Under the pieces are notes generated by a model. That model saw only the letters and a program-made list of their open reading frames with translations, was not told the origin of the DNA and did not search any database. The position numbers and the translations under genes are program-made. Source: Hymenobacter jeollabukensis (GTDB taxonomy: Bacteria > Bacteroidota > Bacteroidia > Cytophagales > Hymenobacteraceae). From it: DNA of 64,000 nucleotides. Positions within the stretch are counted from its first letter, which is position 1; each line of letters starts with the position of its first letter. Location: positions 682,001-746,000 of the forward strand of contig NZ_VAJM01000002.1 in NCBI RefSeq assembly GCF_005771675.1. Reading direction: 5' to 3'. Shown here in pieces: positions 9,984 through 44,333 of the stretch.

Positions 9984-10313
9984 ATGGTCAGTCATCCCGC
10001 CCCGTCCGAAGCCTTTCCCGGCGCGACCCAGGAAGCCCCCGGCCCGACCAAAAAACCTCCCGGCGCGACCAATGAAGTGCCCGGCACGACCCAAGAACTC
10101 CCCGGCCTCCTCGAAGTACTTCCCGGCCCAAACGAAGCTCTTCCCGGTGCGACCGAAGCAGTTACCGGAGATGGTTCCGGTGCTTCGGGCGGTCCGGGTG
10201 GGGCTTCGGAGCCGGCGGATACCTCTCACGTCTTGACCGCTGCTGTTTCGGTAGCGGCAACGGCGGCTTCGGGCGGGGCGGGTGGGGAGCTGGGCGTGCG
10301 GGGTGGGGAATAA
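9984..10313 (+). CDS. possible repeat protein encoded by the 21-bp minisatellite
   Basis: This 109-residue frame starts at ATG 9984 and spans the tandem repeat at 10017-10163. It yields heptapeptides such as PGATQEA, PGATNEV and PGTTQEL. The opposite strand is also open (9981-10229, heptads of type FLGRAGR), so openness alone is weak evidence: a 21-bp unit without stops stays open in every copy. No flanking domain, signal peptide or family match is visible. It may be non-coding. Confidence 0.22.
   Translation: MVSHPAPSEAFPGATQEAPGPTKKPPGATNEVPGTTQELPGLLEVLPGPNEALPGATEAVTGDGSGASGGPGGASEPADTSHVLTAAVSVAATAASGGAGGELGVRGGE
10017..10163. repeat. 21-bp tandem repeat, about seven copies
   Basis: Seven degenerate units begin CCCGGCGCGACC or close variants at 10017, 10038, 10059, 10080, 10101, 10122 and 10143. 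The period is exactly 21 bases, so any frame is preserved as a heptad. Copies differ mainly in their last nine bases. Confidence 0.85.
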
Positions 10314-36325: not shown

Positions 36326-37267
36326 TTACAGCACCACGACGACCTTACCCTGAGTTTTGCCGCTTTCCACCAGGCGTAGCGCCTCGGTCAGCTCAGCAAA
36401 GGGCAGCGCCTGCGACACGTGCGCCCGCAGGCGGCCATCGGCCAGGCGCTCGGCGAGGCGCTGCATATCGGTGCCATCGGAGCTGACCAGGAAGAAGTAG
36501 CCGTGGATGCCCTTGGCGGCGGCCCGCTCGGTGATGTCGGGGCTCAAGCCGCTGGGGATACTGATGAGCGTGCCGCCCGGCTTCACCACGTCCAGGGAAC
36601 GGACCATGTTGTCGCCGCCAATGGCATCGAGCACCATGTCAACGGGTTGCACCGCGTCTTCAAACCGCACCTGGGTGTAATCCACGTGCTCATCGGCCCC
36701 GAGCGACAAGACAAAGTCTCGTTTGGCGGCCGAGGAGGTACCGATGACGTAGGCCCCCAACTCCTTCGCCAGCTGCACCGCAAAGTGCCCGACCCCGCCC
36801 GCGGCGGCGTGAATGAGCACGCGCTGGCCCGGCTGCACGTGGGCCTTGGTCACCAGGGCCTGCCAGGCGGTGAGGGCCGCCAGCGTGGTGGCAGCGGCTT
36901 CTTCGTGGCTGATGCTGGCGGGTTTGCGGGCCAGGTGAGCGGCGGGGGCGGCCATGTACTCGGCGTAGGCGCGGCCGTGGCCGGGGAAGTTGACCATGCC
37001 GAACACCTCGTCGCCGACCTTGAAGTCGGTTACGTCGGCACCCACGGCGCTGACCACGCCCGAAATATCCCAGCCCGGTATCAGCGGCTGCTCGTCTTTG
37101 AGGCGGCCGTACACGCCCTTGCCGTAGGTGGTTTTCACGTCGACGGGGTTCAGGCTGATGGCTATTACCTGCACCAGCACCTCAGCCGGGCCGATGGTGG
37201 GGGTGGACAAGGTGGTCGTTTGGAGGCTGTCGGGGCCGGTGGTACCCGTGAGCAGGAAGGCGTTCAT
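36326..37267 (-). CDS. NADP-dependent quinone-oxidoreductase-type dehydrogenase
   Basis: The product has 313 residues; ATG 37267 gives MNAFLLTGTTGPDSLQTT, the natural start of this MDR family, and the longer open frame upstream contains the regulatory block. The GroES-like fold (PVDVKTTYGKGVYGRLKDEQ, LIPGWDISGVV) is followed by a Rossmann domain with the NADPH-binding motif AAAGGVGHFAVQLAKELGAY. The structural-zinc cysteines of true alcohol dehydrogenases are absent. It reduces activated alkenes or quinones in known relatives. First gene of the operon, preceded by the regulatory block at 37294-37359. Confidence 0.93.
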   Translation of the reverse strand: MNAFLLTGTTGPDSLQTTTLSTPTIGPAEVLVQVIAISLNPVDVKTTYGKGVYGRLKDEQPLIPGWDISGVVSAVGADVTDFKVGDEVFGMVNFPGHGRAYAEYMAAPAAHLARKPASISHEEAAATTLAALTAWQALVTKAHVQPGQRVLIHAAAGGVGHFAVQLAKELGAYVIGTSSAAKRDFVLSLGADEHVDYTQVRFEDAVQPVDMVLDAIGGDNMVRSLDVVKPGGTLISIPSGLSPDITERAAAKGIHGYFFLVSSDGTDMQRLAERLADGRLRAHVSQALPFAELTEALRLVESGKTQGKVVVVL

Positions 37268-37293: not shown

Positions 37294-37359
37294 GCACAAA
37301 GGTGCCCGGCGCCGCTACCTGGCCCGCGGTACGAATCGGGGATAATGCGGCACGGAAAG
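37294..37359 (-). promoter_or_regulatory. AraC-type promoter/operator block, copy 1
   Basis: Direct repeats GCGGTACGAA (37326-37335) and GCGGCACGGAA (37347-37357) start exactly 21 bases apart. Near the gene, CAAAGGTG gives a minus-strand CACCTTTG, one mismatch from the -7 box TAnnTTTG, with no clear -33 TTG. A near-identical block with the same internal spacing precedes the 39120 start. This fits an activator-dependent promoter for the oxidoreductase operon. Confidence 0.65.
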
Positions 37360-37433
37360 CGGAGCCACGGCGAGCGTTAATGACGGACCGTTCTATCGGC
37401 TTCCGCCTGGTCCTTTGGTTTTTAGCCAGCTTC

Positions 37434-38576
37434 TCAACTGCGGAATGGCTCGGCACCGATGGGCAGCTTGTAGATGAATACCGGCGGCTGAAAGGCGTCC
37501 ACGCCGCCGTGCAGGCGGGCAAGGCGGTTGAGCTGCGCGGCCGGAATCCACAGGTTGCCGTGGTTATCAATCCATAGGGCATCGGGCCAGAGCAGGTGCT
37601 TGTCTTCGAGCAGCGTGGTGGCCTGGGCGTCGGGCGTGATTTTGAGGATGCGCTGGTGGTTGGCGTCCGCCACGTAGAGGTTGCCCGCAGCGTCGATGGC
37701 CGTGCCGCCCGTGCTGGGCGTGTCGAAGAACAGCTGCACGTGCCGGCTTAGCTCGGCGGCGGGCAGCTGCGGGTTGAGCAGGTAGCGCGTCTCAATGCGG
37801 TAAAGGGGGCCGGAGGCAGTCTGGAAGTAGAGAAGCCGGCCGTCGGGCGACACTTCGAGCTGGTCGGCGTGCACCCGCACGGGCTGGCCGGCGGGGGTGG
37901 TAAGCGCGGTGCCCTCCGCGTAGAGGGGGCGCCGGGCGGTGGTGCTGGCATCGTTTTCCAGTACGCGGCGGCCCCGGCCCGTTTGCTTATCCAGTACGAT
38001 AAGGGCCGGCACCCCGGCATCGGTGAGGTAAATGGTGTTGCCGGCCAGGCGCAGGTCGTCTACGAAGCTGTTGGGTTTCAGCACGTCGGTCAGCGGCAGG
38101 GTGCGCACTACCTGGTTGGTTTGCAGGTCGATGGCCACCAGCTTGGGGCCGCCGGGCAGGACGGGGCCGCCCATCTGGGCCGTGCCGGTGTCCACCACCC
38201 ACAGCAGACCATCGGGGCCGATGCGGAGTGAATTGGCCCGCACAAACTTGCCGGCGGTGGGCGCGCCGGGCTGCCAGTCGTTCCAGGCAGCGCTGGGGTA
38301 AGGCTCGGGCTGGCCGTTGCGCAGCTCGGCAATGCGGGGGCCTGCTTCGCCAGCCGGGCGCGGGTAGAGCACAAACGCCCGCCCGGCGTCGCTGACCACA
38401 ATGCCCACCCAGGGCGTCGGACCCTGGTATACCGCTTCGAGCGGCCCTACGGTCGGGTGGGCCGCCGGCGTCTGCTCCGTGTTTCTTTCCATGGAAGTCG
38501 ACGTGTTCGAGGTGCAGGCGCTGAGCAGCAGTCCGAGCAAAATGCTTTTTAGCAGGGTTTGGCGCGGGGCGTTCAT
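37434..38576 (-). CDS. major royal jelly/yellow-family lipoprotein (copy 2)
   Basis: The product has 380 residues; ATG 38576 overlaps the upstream stop (ATGA), so it is translationally coupled to the ester cyclase frame. A lipoprotein signal ends in LLLSACTS. The MRJP/yellow signatures match copy 1 at 34694-35833: RAFVLYPRPAGEAGPRIAEL, LLWVVDTGTAQMGGPVLPGG, DDLRLAGNTIYLTDAGVPAL, LWPDALWIDNHGNLWIPAAQ. The two copies are clearly diverged paralogues placed in separate operons with the same promoter block. Confidence 0.9.
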   Translation of the reverse strand: MNAPRQTLLKSILLGLLLSACTSNTSTSMERNTEQTPAAHPTVGPLEAVYQGPTPWVGIVVSDAGRAFVLYPRPAGEAGPRIAELRNGQPEPYPSAAWNDWQPGAPTAGKFVRANSLRIGPDGLLWVVDTGTAQMGGPVLPGGPKLVAIDLQTNQVVRTLPLTDVLKPNSFVDDLRLAGNTIYLTDAGVPALIVLDKQTGRGRRVLENDASTTARRPLYAEGTALTTPAGQPVRVHADQLEVSPDGRLLYFQTASGPLYRIETRYLLNPQLPAAELSRHVQLFFDTPSTGGTAIDAAGNLYVADANHQRILKITPDAQATTLLEDKHLLWPDALWIDNHGNLWIPAAQLNRLARLHGGVDAFQPPVFIYKLPIGAEPFRS

Positions 38577-39120
38577 GGCTTTACCACGCCGATCTGCTGC
38601 TGGAAAGACAGGTTGTCTTCCAGGTGCCAGTCCTCGTAAATCTTGCCGTCGCGGATGTGCAGGATGTCGATGGCAATGAAGCGAATGGCTTTGCCCGAGG
38701 CCGGGTGCGATCCAAACGGCCCGGTATTGTGGCCCGTGAACAGCAGCCGGGCCACCACCTTGTCGTTGGCCAGCACCACGTCTTCCAACGTGCATTCAGG
38801 TCGGGTACGGCCATCAGAAAGCCTTTGGAAGCGGCTTGCAGGCCCGGCAGCCCCTGGGGCCGGCCCAGCGGCAAGGTGTTGTCCTTGAAATCGGGGCTGA
38901 CGGCGGCGCGGGCATAGCGCACGTCGCCCGTGTTCCAGAAAGTGTAGAATAGGCGGGCCGTGCGCAGCAGCTGCGCGGCCTGCGCATCGGTGAGGCTGCT
39001 GGCCCACGTCACGAGTTTGGGGGCCGTGATGGGAGCCAGCGGCAGGTTCGATTGGGCGGGGGCGGCCGGCCCGCCGGCGCCCAGCAGCGCCAGGCCGGCC
39101 AAAAGCGGAAGCAGTTTCAT
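38573..39120 (-). pseudogene. secreted SnoaL-like ester cyclase, frameshifted
   Basis: ATG 39120 starts a signal peptide (MKLLPLLAGLALLGAGG) and a SnoaL-like body (FYTFWNTGDVRYARAAVSPD, GLQAASKGFLMAVPDLN) in one frame. The family sequence then continues in another frame: TLEDVVLANDKVVARLLFTG, IAIDILHIRDGKIYEDWHLE. The switch lies at about 38788-38796, where one base appears to be missing. The second frame ends at 38573 in the ATGA overlap with the next gene, which shows the intact gene once ran through. SnoaL folds are cyclases or small hydratases. Either a real recent pseudogene or a one-base sequencing error. Confidence 0.85.
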
Positions 39121-39143
39121 GGCAGGAAAAGGTTGATTGGACG

Positions 39144-39209
39144 GCACAAAGGTGCCTGCCCCTGCTACCTAGCCTGCGGTACGAATCGGGGATAATGCGG
39201 CACGGAAAG
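39144..39209 (-). promoter_or_regulatory. AraC-type promoter/operator block, copy 2
   Basis: Direct repeats GCGGTACGAA (39176-39185) and GCGGCACGGAA (39197-39207), 21 bases apart, plus the CAAAGGTG -7 region. Sequence and internal spacing (32 bases from GCACAAA to the first GCGGT) match copy 1. It precedes the ester cyclase/royal-jelly operon by 23 bases. Confidence 0.65.
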
Positions 39210-39451
39210 GAGGCGCTCCGGGTGAGCTATTGCTGCTGGTTCTGCTTCCGAAGCCTACACCACTAATCATACCCTGGCTCTTGCGCTTGCTGCAAAAGAG
39301 CCCTTAGCTGACTGTATATGGCCTTTTGAGGCCCAAGCCTGCGCTCAAAGGCCACCTGCTGCCCGGCCGGCGCCAATGTGCCCGCCGGGAGTGGTTGGAT
39401 TTTCTCCGGCACTGTCCTCGCGGACAAGCTCACGCCGACGCGTACGCGTTG
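39210..39451. other. intergenic, possible C-terminal coding remnant
   Basis: No complete gene. On the minus strand, in the same frame as the AraC gene but after its stop, the stretch 39400-39262 reads PAGQQVAFERRLGPQKAIYS and then QLRALLQQAQEPGYD before a stop. This looks coding-like, but I recognise no family. A weak hairpin (GGCCTTTTGAG / CTCAAAGGCC) lies at 39320-39353. Confidence 0.35.
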
Positions 39452-40348
39452 TTAAGCTACCAGCGGCACGCTGGCCGGCGCGGCGGCTGATTTCAGCTGG
39501 CAGAACTGGCCGCGCTGCTTGAATTGCTGCGCGGTGTAGCCGTAGTGCTTTTTAAAGGTGCGGGCAAAGTGGCTGGTGTCGGTAAAACCCAGCTCAAACG
39601 CAATTTCCTTGACCGAGTGGTCGGAGTGCAGCAGGCGGGATTCGGCCACCTTGAGCCGCGACTTCGTAATGTAGGCTTGCAGCGACTCGCCGGCGTGCTG
39701 CCGGAAATACTCGCCGAAATACGACGGCGCCACGCCCGTGCGGGCCGCCAGCGCGGCAATGCTCAGCTGCTCCGGCTGAAACAGATGGTGCTGAACGTGG
39801 TTGAGCACTTCCACGAAGCGGCGGGGCGCGCTGCCGGGTGCAGCCAGTAGCGCCGCTTCCACGTGGCGCGCCAGCAGGTTCAGCACCGTCACCAGCGTGC
39901 TTTGGATGAGGGAGGACGAAAAGGTGTCGCCCTTGGCGTATTCAGCCCGGATCAGGTGCAGGCATTGAACCAGGTGGTGCTTGTCCTGCGGGTCCGCAAT
40001 CAGGTCGCCGGGCACCTGGTTGTAGTTAATCAGGATGTAGGAGAGCTGCTGAAACCAGGCCTGAAAGTCGGCTTCGGCTGGGCTGTTGCGGGCAAATACT
40101 TGGTGCGTAAAGCGCAGAAACACGAACCGCGTCGGGGTGCTGATCTGAAACGAATGGCAGTCGAGCGGCGGCAGCAGGAACACGTTGCCGGCTTCGTACG
40201 CTATATGCTGGTGGTTTATGCACTGCCGGCCCGCGCCGGCCTCGATAAACACCAGCTCGAAGAAGTTGTGCTGGTGCGGCCGGGCCACCCACTGCGTCAG
40301 CTCTTCTACGGTAATTTCAAACGGGGCGTGCGACTGTTGGATGTGCAT
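39452..40348 (-). CDS. AraC family regulator with cupin sensor domain
   Basis: The product has 298 residues, ATG 40348. The N-terminal half is a cupin-type sensor (PHQHNFFELVFIEAGAGRQC, YEAGNVFLLPPLDCHSFQIS). The C-terminal 100 residues hold two AraC helix-turn-helix units (LSIAALAARTGVAPSYFGEY and KEIAFELGFTDTSHFARTFK). AraC proteins bind tandem direct repeats as dimers and activate nearby promoters. It is divergent from another AraC gene at 40470 and lies upstream of both royal-jelly operons, so it is a plausible activator of the 37294 and 39144 blocks. Confidence 0.93.
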   Translation of the reverse strand: MHIQQSHAPFEITVEELTQWVARPHQHNFFELVFIEAGAGRQCINHQHIAYEAGNVFLLPPLDCHSFQISTPTRFVFLRFTHQVFARNSPAEADFQAWFQQLSYILINYNQVPGDLIADPQDKHHLVQCLHLIRAEYAKGDTFSSSLIQSTLVTVLNLLARHVEAALLAAPGSAPRRFVEVLNHVQHHLFQPEQLSIAALAARTGVAPSYFGEYFRQHAGESLQAYITKSRLKVAESRLLHSDHSVKEIAFELGFTDTSHFARTFKKHYGYTAQQFKQRGQFCQLKSAAAPASVPLVA

Positions 40349-40401
40349 AGCGTTGGGGTGTTATCGTCCGCAATAAGGCGCAAGGATGAAATTTTGTTTT
40401 C

Positions 40402-40449
40402 CCGGCCGGGTGGTCCATCTATCCGGCCGGCAGCTGGCCGCTACCTTTG
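40402..40449 (+). promoter_or_regulatory. promoter with 21-bp direct repeats before the second AraC gene
   Basis: CCGGCCGG occurs at 40402-40409 and 40423-40430, exactly 21 bases apart. A perfect -7 box TACCTTTG is at 40442-40449, and the gene starts at 40470. Spacing of two helical turns fits an AraC dimer site, so autoregulation is likely. Confidence 0.65.
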
Positions 40450-40469
40450 AATAACGCAACCTCCGCCCC

Positions 40470-41399
40470 ATGAAAACGGCATCCCTGGACGAGTTTTACC
40501 ACAAGCTGGCGGCGCTGGCCGGAACCGACCCGAGCGGCCTGCTGCCCAGCGGCATTCAGCGGGAAATCGGGCATTTCAACGTCTTCAACCTCGAGGACCT
40601 ACTGCGCCACGTGCGCGAGAAGCCCACCATGCCCTTCGACCGCCGGGCCTACTACAAAATCAGCCTGATTACGGGCCGAAGCCGGGCCGAATACGCCGAC
40701 AAGGTCATTGCCATCGACCAGCAGGCCCTGCTGTTTGCCACGCCCAAAGTACCCTACCACTGGGTGCCCGACGACCTGAACCAGGTGGGCCTGTCGTGCG
40801 TGTTTACGGCCGATTTTATGCTGCCGGCCAAGAGCGGCGCGGTGCTCGACGAGCTGCCCATCTTCCGGGCGGGCGGCTACCCGGTCTTCCAAGTATCGGC
40901 CGCGGAGCACGCCGAGCTGCGGGCCATTTTCCAGAAGATGCAGCAAACCATCGGCTCCGAGTACGCCTATAAGTACGACCTGCTGCGCACCTACGTGCTG
41001 GAGCTGATTCATTTTGGGCAGCGCTTGCAGCCGGCCCCGGCCGAGCACCCCATGCTCAACGCTTCGGCGCGCGTCAGCTCCCTATTTATCGAATTGCTGG
41101 AGCGGCAGTTTCCCGTCAGCACGCCCCAACAGCGGCTGCAGCTGCGCACGGCCGGGGAGTTTGCCGACCGGCTGGCCGTGCACGTCAACCACCTGAACCG
41201 GGTGCTGAAGGAAACCACCGGCCGAACTACCACCGACCTCATTGCCGGCCGCCTGCTGCAGGAAGCCAAAACCCTGCTGCAGGAAACCAACTGGACGGTG
41301 TCGGAAATTGCCGACTGCCTCGGCTTCGCGGAAGTGGCGCATTTTTCCCATTTTTTCAAGCGCCACACGTCCCTCTCGCCCCTAGCTTTCCGCGCCTGA
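40470..41399 (+). CDS. AraC family regulator
   Basis: The product has 309 residues, ATG 40470. The N-terminal sensor half begins TASLDEFYHKLAALAGTDPS and carries a cupin-like segment (YYKISLITGRSRAEYADKVI). The C-terminal AraC domain has FADRLAVHVNHLNRVLKETT and SEIADCLGFAEVAHFSHFFK as its two helix-turn-helix units. It is divergent from the cupin-type AraC gene and directly upstream of two short-chain dehydrogenase genes. The CCGGCC-type repeats before it and before the first SDR suggest it controls both. Confidence 0.93.
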   Translation: MKTASLDEFYHKLAALAGTDPSGLLPSGIQREIGHFNVFNLEDLLRHVREKPTMPFDRRAYYKISLITGRSRAEYADKVIAIDQQALLFATPKVPYHWVPDDLNQVGLSCVFTADFMLPAKSGAVLDELPIFRAGGYPVFQVSAAEHAELRAIFQKMQQTIGSEYAYKYDLLRTYVLELIHFGQRLQPAPAEHPMLNASARVSSLFIELLERQFPVSTPQQRLQLRTAGEFADRLAVHVNHLNRVLKETTGRTTTDLIAGRLLQEAKTLLQETNWTVSEIADCLGFAEVAHFSHFFKRHTSLSPLAFRA

Positions 41400-41433
41400 A
41401 GCGGATTGTTTGATGCAGACAAATAATGGGTTG

Positions 41434-41473
41434 GCCGGCGCAAACGGGGCCTGAGCCGGCCGCCGGAGCTTTG
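41434..41473 (+). promoter_or_regulatory. promoter with 21-bp direct repeats before the first SDR
   Basis: GCCGGC at 41434-41439 and 41455-41460, exactly 21 bases apart, ahead of a -7-like GAGCTTTG at 41466-41473. The half-site resembles the CCGGCC repeats at 40402, so the same AraC protein may act here. The gene starts at 41503. Confidence 0.55.
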
Positions 41474-41502
41474 TGGGGTCAAGTAACAATCCCCTCATTG
41501 TC

Positions 41503-42333
41503 ATGAGCAACACTGTGTTTATCACCGGCGCATCGTCCGGTTTTGGCCGGGCCACCGCCCGTTATTTTGCCGCGCAAGGCTGGAACGTCGTCGCCACCAT
41601 GCGCACCCCGGAGCAGGAAACCGAGCTGACCCAGCTGCCCAACGTGCTGGTCACCCAGCTCGACGTGGAGCGGCCGGCTACCATTGCCGCGGCCGTGGCC
41701 GCCGGGCTGGCGCGGTTCGGCCAGCTCGACGTGCTGGTCAACAACGCCGGCTTCGGCACCTTCGGCATCTTCGAATCGGCTTCCGCGGTGCAAATCCGGC
41801 GGCAGTTCGACGTGAACGTGTTCGGCCTGATGGCCGTGACGCAGGCCGTGCTGCCGCATTTGCGGGCGCAGCACCGCGGCACGGTCATCAATGTTTCATC
41901 CTTTGGCGGGCGCGTAGCGGTACCCGTGGGCAGCCTCTATAACGCCTCCAAGTTTGCGGTGGAGGGCTTTTCGGAGTCGCTGTCCTACGAGCTGGCGGCG
42001 CTGGGCGTGGGCGTCAAAATCATCGAGCCCGGCGGCGTCGCCACCAATTTCGGCAGCACCTCGGCCGAAGTCATTCAGAGCAATCTGCCCGAGTACGCAC
42101 CCGTCACCAGCACGTTCCGCACGCACTATGCGCAAGCCACCGGGCACCTGCCGCGCAGCACCGCCGAGGATGTGGCCCGGGTCATTTACCAGGCGGCCAC
42201 CGACGGCACTTCGCAGCTGCGCTACGTGGTCGGGGCCGATGCCGCGCACTACCTGCAAGCCCGGCAAACGGCTTCCGACCAGGAGTATCTGGCCATCATG
42301 CGCGGCTACTTCCCCTATTTCGCGGCTGAGTAG
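41503..42333 (+). CDS. short-chain dehydrogenase/reductase 1
   Basis: The product has 276 residues; I start at ATG 41503 (MSNTVFITGASSGFGRATAR), which puts the cofactor motif TGASSGFG at the N-terminus. Further signatures: VLVNNAGFGTFG, catalytic Ser in INVSSFGGR and the YxxxK motif in LYNASKFAVEGFSESL. SDR enzymes reduce carbonyls with NAD(P)H. Neither cofactor preference nor substrate can be told; similar SDRs beside AraC regulators are common in Bacteroidota. It forms a pair with SDR 2 downstream, separated by a palindrome. Confidence 0.94.
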   Translation: MSNTVFITGASSGFGRATARYFAAQGWNVVATMRTPEQETELTQLPNVLVTQLDVERPATIAAAVAAGLARFGQLDVLVNNAGFGTFGIFESASAVQIRRQFDVNVFGLMAVTQAVLPHLRAQHRGTVINVSSFGGRVAVPVGSLYNASKFAVEGFSESLSYELAALGVGVKIIEPGGVATNFGSTSAEVIQSNLPEYAPVTSTFRTHYAQATGHLPRSTAEDVARVIYQAATDGTSQLRYVVGADAAHYLQARQTASDQEYLAIMRGYFPYFAAE

Positions 42334-42338
42334 CGGCG

Positions 42339-42398
42339 CGAGCTTGGCGGTTCGCGTCCGCTGGCGAGCATCCACCCGGACGCGAACCACCAAGCTCG
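42339..42398. repeat. palindromic element between the two SDR genes
   Basis: 22-bp arms 42339-42360 and 42377-42398 (CGAGCTTGGCGGTTCGCGTC...), one mismatch that is a G-U in RNA, 16-base loop. No T-run follows, so a mobile palindrome rather than a standard terminator is possible. Confidence 0.75.
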
Positions 42399-42432
42399 TC
42401 GCACTATTGCTCGCTCCGCCCCGACGTCATTC

Positions 42433-42495
42433 TGTATCACAACTTCCTCCTTTTGTATCAGCCTCCCGCCGGGGCCTTGCCGGAATTTTGTGTCA
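42433..42495 (+). promoter_or_regulatory. promoter with TGTATCA repeats before the second SDR
   Basis: TGTATCA at 42433-42439 and 42454-42460, exactly 21 bases apart, plus TGTGTCA at 42489-42495 over a -7-like GAATTTTG (42483-42490). The half-site differs from CCGGCC, so another regulator, perhaps the AraC protein at 43437, may act here. The gene starts at 42518. Confidence 0.55.
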
Positions 42496-42517: not shown

Positions 42518-43339
42518 ATGGCAAAGACAATCTTCATTACCGGCGCTTCCCGCGGATTCGGGAAAATTTGGGCCGAAGCTTTTTTGAAACGCGGCGACAA
42601 CGTAGTAGCCACGTCCCGCAACGTAGCCGGGCTGCAAGACCTGGTCGACACCTACAGCGCGGCCTTCCTGCCGCTGGCCCTCGACATCACCAACCGCGCC
42701 CAGAGCCTGGCCGCCGTGCAACAGGCCAAAGAGCACTTTGGCACGCTCGATGTGGTCATTAACAACGCGGGCTACGGCGTATTCGGGGCCGTGGAAGAAA
42801 TCAGCGAGCAGGAAGCCCGCGACATCATCGACGCCAACTTGCTGGGCACGCTCTGGGTGACGCAGGCGGCGCTGCCCATCTTCCGGGCGCAGGGCCACGG
42901 GCATATTATCCAGCTGTCGAGCATTCTGGGCATCAATACGGCCCAGACGCTGGGCCTGTACAGCGCCACCAAGTTTGCGGTGGAGGGCCTAAGCGAGGCG
43001 CTGGCGCTGGAGGTAAAGGACCTCGGTATTCACGTCACGCTGGTGGAGCCTAATGGCTTCAAAACGGACTTCGGCGGCAGCTCGGCCGTGCAAAGCCAGC
43101 CCATTGCGGCCTACGACAAGGTGAAAGAGGCGCTGTGGGCCATTCCCAGCTTCGTCCCCGATAACTACGGCGACCCGCTGACGACCGTGCCGGCCATCCT
43201 CCAACTAATTGATTCCGAGAAGCCGCCGCTGCGCCTGTTTCTGGGCCGCGACGCTTACCCCTGGGCGCAGCAGGTCTACGGCGAGCGGCTGGCCAACTGG
43301 GCCGCGTGGCAGGACGTGGCCGTGGCGGCCCACGGCTAA
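42518..43339 (+). CDS. short-chain dehydrogenase/reductase 2
   Basis: The product has 273 residues; ATG 42518 gives MAKTIFITGASRGFGKIWAE with the cofactor-binding TGASRGFG. NNAGYGVFG, catalytic Ser in IIQLSSILG and YxxxK in LYSATKFAVEGLSEAL follow, and the C-terminal part (LRLFLGRDAYPWAQQVYGER) is typical of these larger SDRs. It is about as long as SDR 1 but clearly diverged from it. Its promoter carries different 21-bp repeats, so the two dehydrogenases may respond to different signals. Confidence 0.94.
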   Translation: MAKTIFITGASRGFGKIWAEAFLKRGDNVVATSRNVAGLQDLVDTYSAAFLPLALDITNRAQSLAAVQQAKEHFGTLDVVINNAGYGVFGAVEEISEQEARDIIDANLLGTLWVTQAALPIFRAQGHGHIIQLSSILGINTAQTLGLYSATKFAVEGLSEALALEVKDLGIHVTLVEPNGFKTDFGGSSAVQSQPIAAYDKVKEALWAIPSFVPDNYGDPLTTVPAILQLIDSEKPPLRLFLGRDAYPWAQQVYGERLANWAAWQDVAVAAHG

Positions 43340-43436: not shown

Positions 43437-44333
43437 ATGAAGCATTTCACCAGCATCGGCGAATTCCACCGCATCAGCGGCTATGAGCCGGCCGAGCACC
43501 CGCTGCTGAGTTTGTTGACCTGCCAGGAACTGACGCACTGCTCCTTCGGCAGCAGCCCGATTACCACGGACTTCTACATGATTAGTCTGAAGAAAATCAA
43601 GGCGGGCAACTTTCTCTACGGCAAAACCACATATGACCACGACGCCGGCTCCCTCTCCTTCGTGAAGCCCCGGCAGGTGATGGCAATCAACGACATCGAA
43701 CTGACCGAAAAAGCCTTCGTGCTCTTCATGCACGAAGACTATCTGCTCGGCCACCCGCTGCACGCCGAGATAAAAAAGTACGGCTTCTTCGACTACGAAG
43801 CCAACGAGGCGCTGCACCTGTCCCCGCGCGAGGAGCAGATTATGTGGGGCTTGTACTACCAGATGGACTTCGAATACCGCAACAATCCGGATGAGTACAG
43901 CCGCGACATTATCCTAACGCACCTGGCTTCCCTACTGAAATATTCGCAGCGCTTCTACAAGCGCCAGTTCCTCAACCGCAGCCCCCTGTCGGGCACCACG
44001 GCCTCGCGCTTTACGGACCTGCTGACGGCTTATTTTGAGGATGGCCTGCTGCAAACCAAAGGCCTGCCCACCGTGAAATACCTGGCCGAGAAGCTGCACA
44101 CCTCGCCGCGCTACCTCACCGATTTGCTGCGGCAGGAAACCGGCAAAACGGCTCTCGACCACATTCACCTGTTCCTGCTGGGCGAGGCCAAAAACCTGCT
44201 CATCAGCACCGACAACACCATTGCCCAAACGGCCTACCAGCTCGGGTTTGAAAACCCGCCCTATTTCTCCCGGCTCTTCAAGAAGGAAGTCGGCCTGACG
44301 CCGCACGAGTACCGGGCGCAGTTCCTGAACTGA
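43437..44333 (+). CDS. AraC family regulator, third copy
   Basis: The product has 298 residues. The N-terminal sensor part (FTSIGEFHRISGYEPAEHPL, SLSFVKPRQVMAINDIEL) is unlike the two other AraC proteins here. The C-terminal DNA-binding half has VKYLAEKLHTSPRYLTDLLR and AQTAYQLGFENPPYFSRLFK, the two helix-turn-helix units, followed by the terminal EYRAQFLN. It is transcribed in the same direction as the SDRs. Its stop codon directly abuts an IS3 remnant, though the C-terminus looks complete. Confidence 0.93.
   Translation: MKHFTSIGEFHRISGYEPAEHPLLSLLTCQELTHCSFGSSPITTDFYMISLKKIKAGNFLYGKTTYDHDAGSLSFVKPRQVMAINDIELTEKAFVLFMHEDYLLGHPLHAEIKKYGFFDYEANEALHLSPREEQIMWGLYYQMDFEYRNNPDEYSRDIILTHLASLLKYSQRFYKRQFLNRSPLSGTTASRFTDLLTAYFEDGLLQTKGLPTVKYLAEKLHTSPRYLTDLLRQETGKTALDHIHLFLLGEAKNLLISTDNTIAQTAYQLGFENPPYFSRLFKKEVGLTPHEYRAQFLN

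Follow-up and report, generated by a model that had tools for sequence, protein, structure and literature searches.

Does a spacing of exactly 21 bp between short direct repeats mark the operators of AraC-family regulators, and does each regulator in a cluster of three have an operator of its own? The question is raised by a gene cluster from a Hymenobacteraceae genome (6.18 Mb), for which an earlier note had proposed that five promoters, with three half-site types for three AraC proteins, form a compact regulon with separate specificities. The whole stretch of DNA analysed, 64,000 nucleotides, is referred to here as the window. From left to right the cluster contains genes for a cupin protein, a zinc-type dehydrogenase (36326-37267; Pfam ADH_N and ADH_zinc_N), a major-royal-jelly-like protein (37434-38576; MRJP) and a SnoaL-like protein (38581-39120; SnoaL), all on the minus strand, then AraC1 (39452-40348, minus), a protein with a cupin-type sensor and an AraC helix-turn-helix region (AraC_binding, HTH_18), and on the plus strand AraC2 (40470-41399), the short-chain dehydrogenases SDR1 (41503-42333) and SDR2 (42518-43339; both adh_short) and AraC3 (43437-44333). 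The presence of three AraC genes was confirmed, as Pfam HTH_18 was found in all of them. The proteins have 298, 309 and 298 amino acids (AraC1 to AraC3) and no kinase or receiver domains according to Pfam. When their helix-turn-helix regions were compared, the presumed recognition helices differed, a finding consistent with separate specificities though no proof of them.

The nearest relative found with the whole cluster was Hymenobacter fodinae 92R-1, in which most of the genes have 89–97% protein identity. The SnoaL-like gene, frame-shifted in our assembly, reads through in H. fodinae; it is either a pseudogene or an assembly error. H. fodinae has additional AraC and SDR genes between the SnoaL-like gene and AraC1 (L063, 5883-7806) that are missing at 39400-39451 of the window, and two other genomes (G077 and G176) have homologues of this extra pair at a distance of a few kb from their dehydrogenase and AraC1 genes. 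Directly 3' of SDR1 there is a hairpin of about -51 kcal/mol (42331-42405), nearly unchanged in H. fodinae and lacking a T run, that is perhaps a terminator or a repeat element.

All five repeats are found where they had been described, at 37326/37347 (P1), 39176/39197 (P2), 40402/40423 (P3), 41434/41455 (P4) and 42433/42454 (P5). The copies are GCGGTACGAA (37326 and 39176) and GCGGCACGGAA (37347 and 39197) at P1 and P2, CCGGCCGG at P3, GCCGGC at P4 and TGTATCA at P5. The consensus GCGGYACGRAA given for P1 and P2 holds for ten of its 11 bases but not for the last one, as the first copy reads GCGGTACGAAT, ending in T. Besides, what had been counted as five promoters are four different ones, because P1 and P2 are near-identical copies, over stretches of about 65 bp, of a single promoter. 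We assessed significance by dinucleotide shuffles, scoring the longest exact repeat in each promoter. At lag 21 the P values were 0.40, 0.15, 0.002, 0.017 and 0.014 for P1 to P5; at any lag between 12 and 40 they were 1.0, 0.99, 0.05, 0.36 and 0.24. No repeat goes beyond chance in the single sequence once any spacing in that range is allowed, and therefore one sequence cannot decide. A spacing of 21 bp is known for AraC proteins, and this is a ground for fixing the lag beforehand.

The P1 operator (37326-37354, minus strand) is located upstream of the zinc-type dehydrogenase. Its A-boxes, GTGCCGC (37353-37347) and GTACCGC (37332-37326), are 21 bp apart with a TCC (37342-37340) between them, and the -7 box CACCTTTG is found at 37297-37304 (minus). 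P2 (39176-39204, minus), upstream of the unit that begins with the SnoaL-like gene and continues with the royal-jelly-like gene, has the same letters and the same box (39147-39154, minus). Alignment of the intergenic gaps showed that both cores are kept in H. fodinae. Altogether the operator, RTNCCGNATTATCCCCGATTCRTACCRC, was found without indels in ten promoters from eight genomes, and in all ten the -7 box is invariant and the distance to it constant (42 bp from ATTATCC to CACCTTTG). Relatives of the dehydrogenase (63–94%) carry the RTNCCGNATTATCCCCGATTCRTACCRC block in H. fodinae (G162) and in G192, G077, G176, G193 and G194; in G138 the block is weaker. In five of these genomes, G138, G077, G176, G193 (where the AraC1 match falls into separate pieces) and G194, an AraC1 orthologue (60–63%) and the dehydrogenase are divergently oriented, and the operator lies in the roughly 175 bp between them. 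A scan of 200 genomes detected the P1 pattern in seven, the reversed-pattern control giving no matches; H. fodinae and the present genome were alone in having two copies, the second preceding the SnoaL unit. Most simply, P2 would have arisen when the P1 promoter was duplicated in front of another operon. The match between distal and proximal half-sites is moderate (RTNCCG vs. RTACCR). By eye, no AraC1-type site was seen in the gap between AraC1 and AraC2.

The P5 operator (42425-42461, plus strand) precedes SDR2 and AraC3. The A-boxes GTATCA (42434-42439) and GTATCAG (42455-42461) are again 21 bp apart, with TTCC (42444-42447) between them, and the -7 box is GAATTTTG (42483-42490, plus), whose TTTG is invariant in all aligned promoters. 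Operator and promoter are unchanged in H. fodinae over about 80 bp. Among the 200 genomes searched, SDR2 orthologues (75–97%) were found in nine others, and at the corresponding position all nine have a block similar to AATCTGTATCAYAAYTTCCKCCTTTTGTATCAG, some 21 poorly conserved bp and a box ending in TTTG. In each of the ten promoters, the reference point of the operator and the -7 box are 51 bp apart. In all nine relatives with the operator, an AraC3 orthologue (74–97%) comes directly after SDR2. The pattern scan of the 200 genomes gave one copy in each of the ten SDR2 genomes and no reversed-pattern matches; a single doubtful match, with two mismatches, came from G047. An intact operator of this type also occurs, once, in G151 (L176, C12:327069-327099), before a truncated SDR2 that matches over 89 residues only, as if a rearrangement had shortened the gene.

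This conservation bears directly on the reading that every 21 bp repeat is due to chance and operators are absent. It would agree with the single-sequence statistics, where each promoter is non-significant at lags 12–40 (P of 0.05 or more), and with the rest of the genome, in which no clean lag-21 excess was found near other AraC genes once tandem arrays had been set aside (the first such scan, with 1.5-kb flanks, was under-powered). However, chance would hardly leave P1, P2 and P5 strongly conserved with a fixed geometry in 8 to 11 genomes, and we consider this reading very improbable. With larger stretches, lag 21 did come first in the own-genome scan; we do not take this as support, because it was due mostly to a pair of tandem arrays and to remnants of coding sequence (multiples of three were raised). 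The window itself contains a tandem array with a 21 bp period (10016-10168, copies matching at about 75%) that is unrelated to the operators. Repeats with this phasing are also found in more distant cassettes. Upstream of the SDR1 homologue of G178 and G180 (L042 and L043), AAACGTATAAG occurs twice at exactly 21 bp, perfect in the former and with one change in the latter, and the pair adjoins an AraC3-like gene (41%). Upstream of the SDR1 homologue of G140 (L044), TGGCGYAAWC occurs three times in steps of 21 bp, with an AraC2 homologue (71%) located 2.3 kb away. These cases suggest that 21 bp phasing may be common among SDR/AraC cassettes. In the window, GGCGCAAAC (41437-41445) can be set beside the G140 repeats, but measured from the -7 box the two are offset by 8 bp.

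A different picture emerged at P3 and P4. The CCGGCCGG pair of P3 (40402-40430, plus) is located between AraC1 and AraC2; in H. fodinae its distal copy reads CTGCTGAC and a deletion has taken 4 bp from the interval to the proximal one, which is itself kept, as is the TACCTTTG box. The GCCGGC pair of P4 (41434-41460, plus), upstream of SDR1, is also broken in H. fodinae, where the distal copy is TCCGGC, in a region otherwise so alike that the comparison tells little. With 116 copies of GCCGGC in the window, this 6-mer has no standing of its own. The earlier note had named conservation of the phasing in relatives as a test beforehand, and P3 and P4 fail it in H. fodinae, so that a third half-site type for a third regulator is left unsupported. 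Both pairs look like GC-rich coincidences. We could not match AraC2 with any operator, and by eye the upstream regions of its more distant homologues share no motif.

One could still hold that all five repeats are real operators, of three half-site types for the three AraC proteins, with P3 and P4 young and lineage-specific. Lag 21 does give the longest exact repeat among lags 10–44 in P3, P4 and P5, and the 8-mer of P3 has the lowest shuffle P at that lag (0.002). However, the P3 and P4 repeats are broken despite flanking proteins that are 95–96% identical between this genome and H. fodinae, and their proximal half-sites end 13 bp (P3) and 5 bp (P4) before the -7 box, not 21 bp as does the conserved RTAYCRS of P1, P2 and P5. 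Together with the abundance of GCCGGC, this makes functional operators at all five places improbable.

The three conserved promoters share a common frame. With the start of the -7 box as reference, P1 and P2 have RTNCCG at -49, TCC at -38 and RTACCRC at -28, and P5 has GTATCA at -49, TTCC at -39 and GTATCAG at -28; RTAYCR at -28 and TCC at -38 are thus common to both operator types. Compared with itself at lags 12–35, each conserved block matches best at lag 21. There is no gap between operator and -7 box in the ten P1/P2-type promoters (eight genomes) or the ten P5-type promoters, all of which share descent within the alignments and are not independent draws. The 19-bp spacer has a mean of 0.74 bits (P1/P2) and 0.79 bits (P5), the operator 1.4–1.9 bits. 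The 11-bp step from the A-box to the TCC is one helical turn, a distance that would fit a monomer with two helix-turn-helices.

The same blocks might be operators of another class (TetR, MarR or an unlinked factor, for instance), their self-similarity at 21 bp being incidental. In favour of this, the central part of the P1/P2 operator, ATTATCCCCGAT, is at 1.87 bits conserved above the half-sites (1.38–1.61 bits), and AraC1 does not adjoin P1 in the window. Such a reading would leave unexplained why the operators co-occur specifically with AraC1 and AraC3 orthologues and why two paralogous regulators are associated with an identical frame relative to the -7 box. Direct repeats of 21 bp are moreover a known AraC-type mode (PMC3878776), and binding to direct repeats is mostly a property of the AraC family (PMC9723621). 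An operator of another class is, in our opinion, unlikely.

Our preferred reading, with a probability of roughly 0.8, is that P1, P2 and P5 are AraC-family operators, of AraC1 in the case of P1 and P2 and of AraC3 in the case of P5, and that P3 and P4 are chance; from the sequences we infer the binding, the dimer and the direction of regulation. At each of the three, a direct pair about 21 bp apart keeps a fixed position beside the core promoter, and is linked to an AraC protein with a double helix-turn-helix (HTH_18) by the joint occurrence of the two in different genomes. Dimeric AraC-family activators would bind at P1, P2 and P5, each monomer covering one half-site with its two helix-turn-helices. 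As the half-sites have the same orientation and 21 bp are two helical turns, both monomers would contact the DNA from the same side. The distal half-site would provide both contacts, the A-box at -49 and the TCC B-box at -38, and the proximal one only the A-box at -28. The latter is close to the expected position of the -33 element, and therefore the bound protein could touch RNA polymerase (class II activation, as at araI2). AraC1 would regulate P1 and P2, and AraC3 would regulate P5 and thereby the SDR2-AraC3 unit; since AraC3 is part of the unit behind P5, it probably regulates itself. As for the inducer, one may guess at a substrate of the dehydrogenases, such as a small reactive carbonyl compound.

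What was proposed for the cluster can accordingly be kept in part. AraC-type operators with 21 bp direct repeats are supported at P1, P2 and P5, where the phasing is kept in relatives, but not at P3 and P4, where it is broken. Separate specificities are upheld for two regulators, the P1/P2 operator travelling with AraC1 and TGTATCA with AraC3, but not for a third. The compact regulon was not borne out, P5 occurring once per genome and P1/P2 being a single operator of which another operon has received a copy. More tentatively, and with somewhat less than even odds, the paralogous AraC proteins of Hymenobacter dehydrogenase cassettes may use one rigid frame in which mainly the letters differ, so that promoters could be copied and regulators diverge without crosstalk.

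These results provide two concrete candidate regulator-operator pairs for Hymenobacter AraC proteins, both with good support from the comparison of genomes, and the -49/-38/-28 frame can be used to find further operators of this kind in the group. Spacing alone is a poor guide, as P3, with the best single-sequence statistics, is absent in the nearest relative. Within an incomplete coverage of the literature, we came upon no paper that describes operators of this type from Hymenobacter. The arrangement as 21 bp direct repeats is already well known, and the P1/P2 and P5 operators are new instances of it.

The half-sites araI1 and araI2 of the Escherichia coli araBAD promoter start 21 bp apart; araI1 has an A-box and a B-box containing TCC, and the B-box of araI2 is weak. 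The operators described here resemble them in the tandem half-sites with the proximal one beside the polymerase, in the distal half-site with an A-box and a TCC B-box, like araI1, and in a proximal half-site where no second box is conserved behind the A-box, like araI2. In contrast to araBAD, the promoter is of the Bacteroidota -7 type (TAnnTTTG-like) instead of the sigma-70 -35/-10 type, the letters of the half-sites are different and the targets are dehydrogenases. In E. coli, AraC binds araI1 and araI2 and the polymerase is recruited from araI2 (PMC4760080). Within the Bacteroidota, the closest likeness is to the HTCS regulators of Bacteroides thetaiotaomicron, which have an AraC-type helix-turn-helix and bind direct repeats averaging 21 bp (PMC3878776). 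However, those are hybrid sensor kinases with receiver and AraC domains that act on polysaccharide loci, whereas AraC1 to AraC3 are one-component proteins of 298–309 amino acids in a cluster where the targets would be dehydrogenases.
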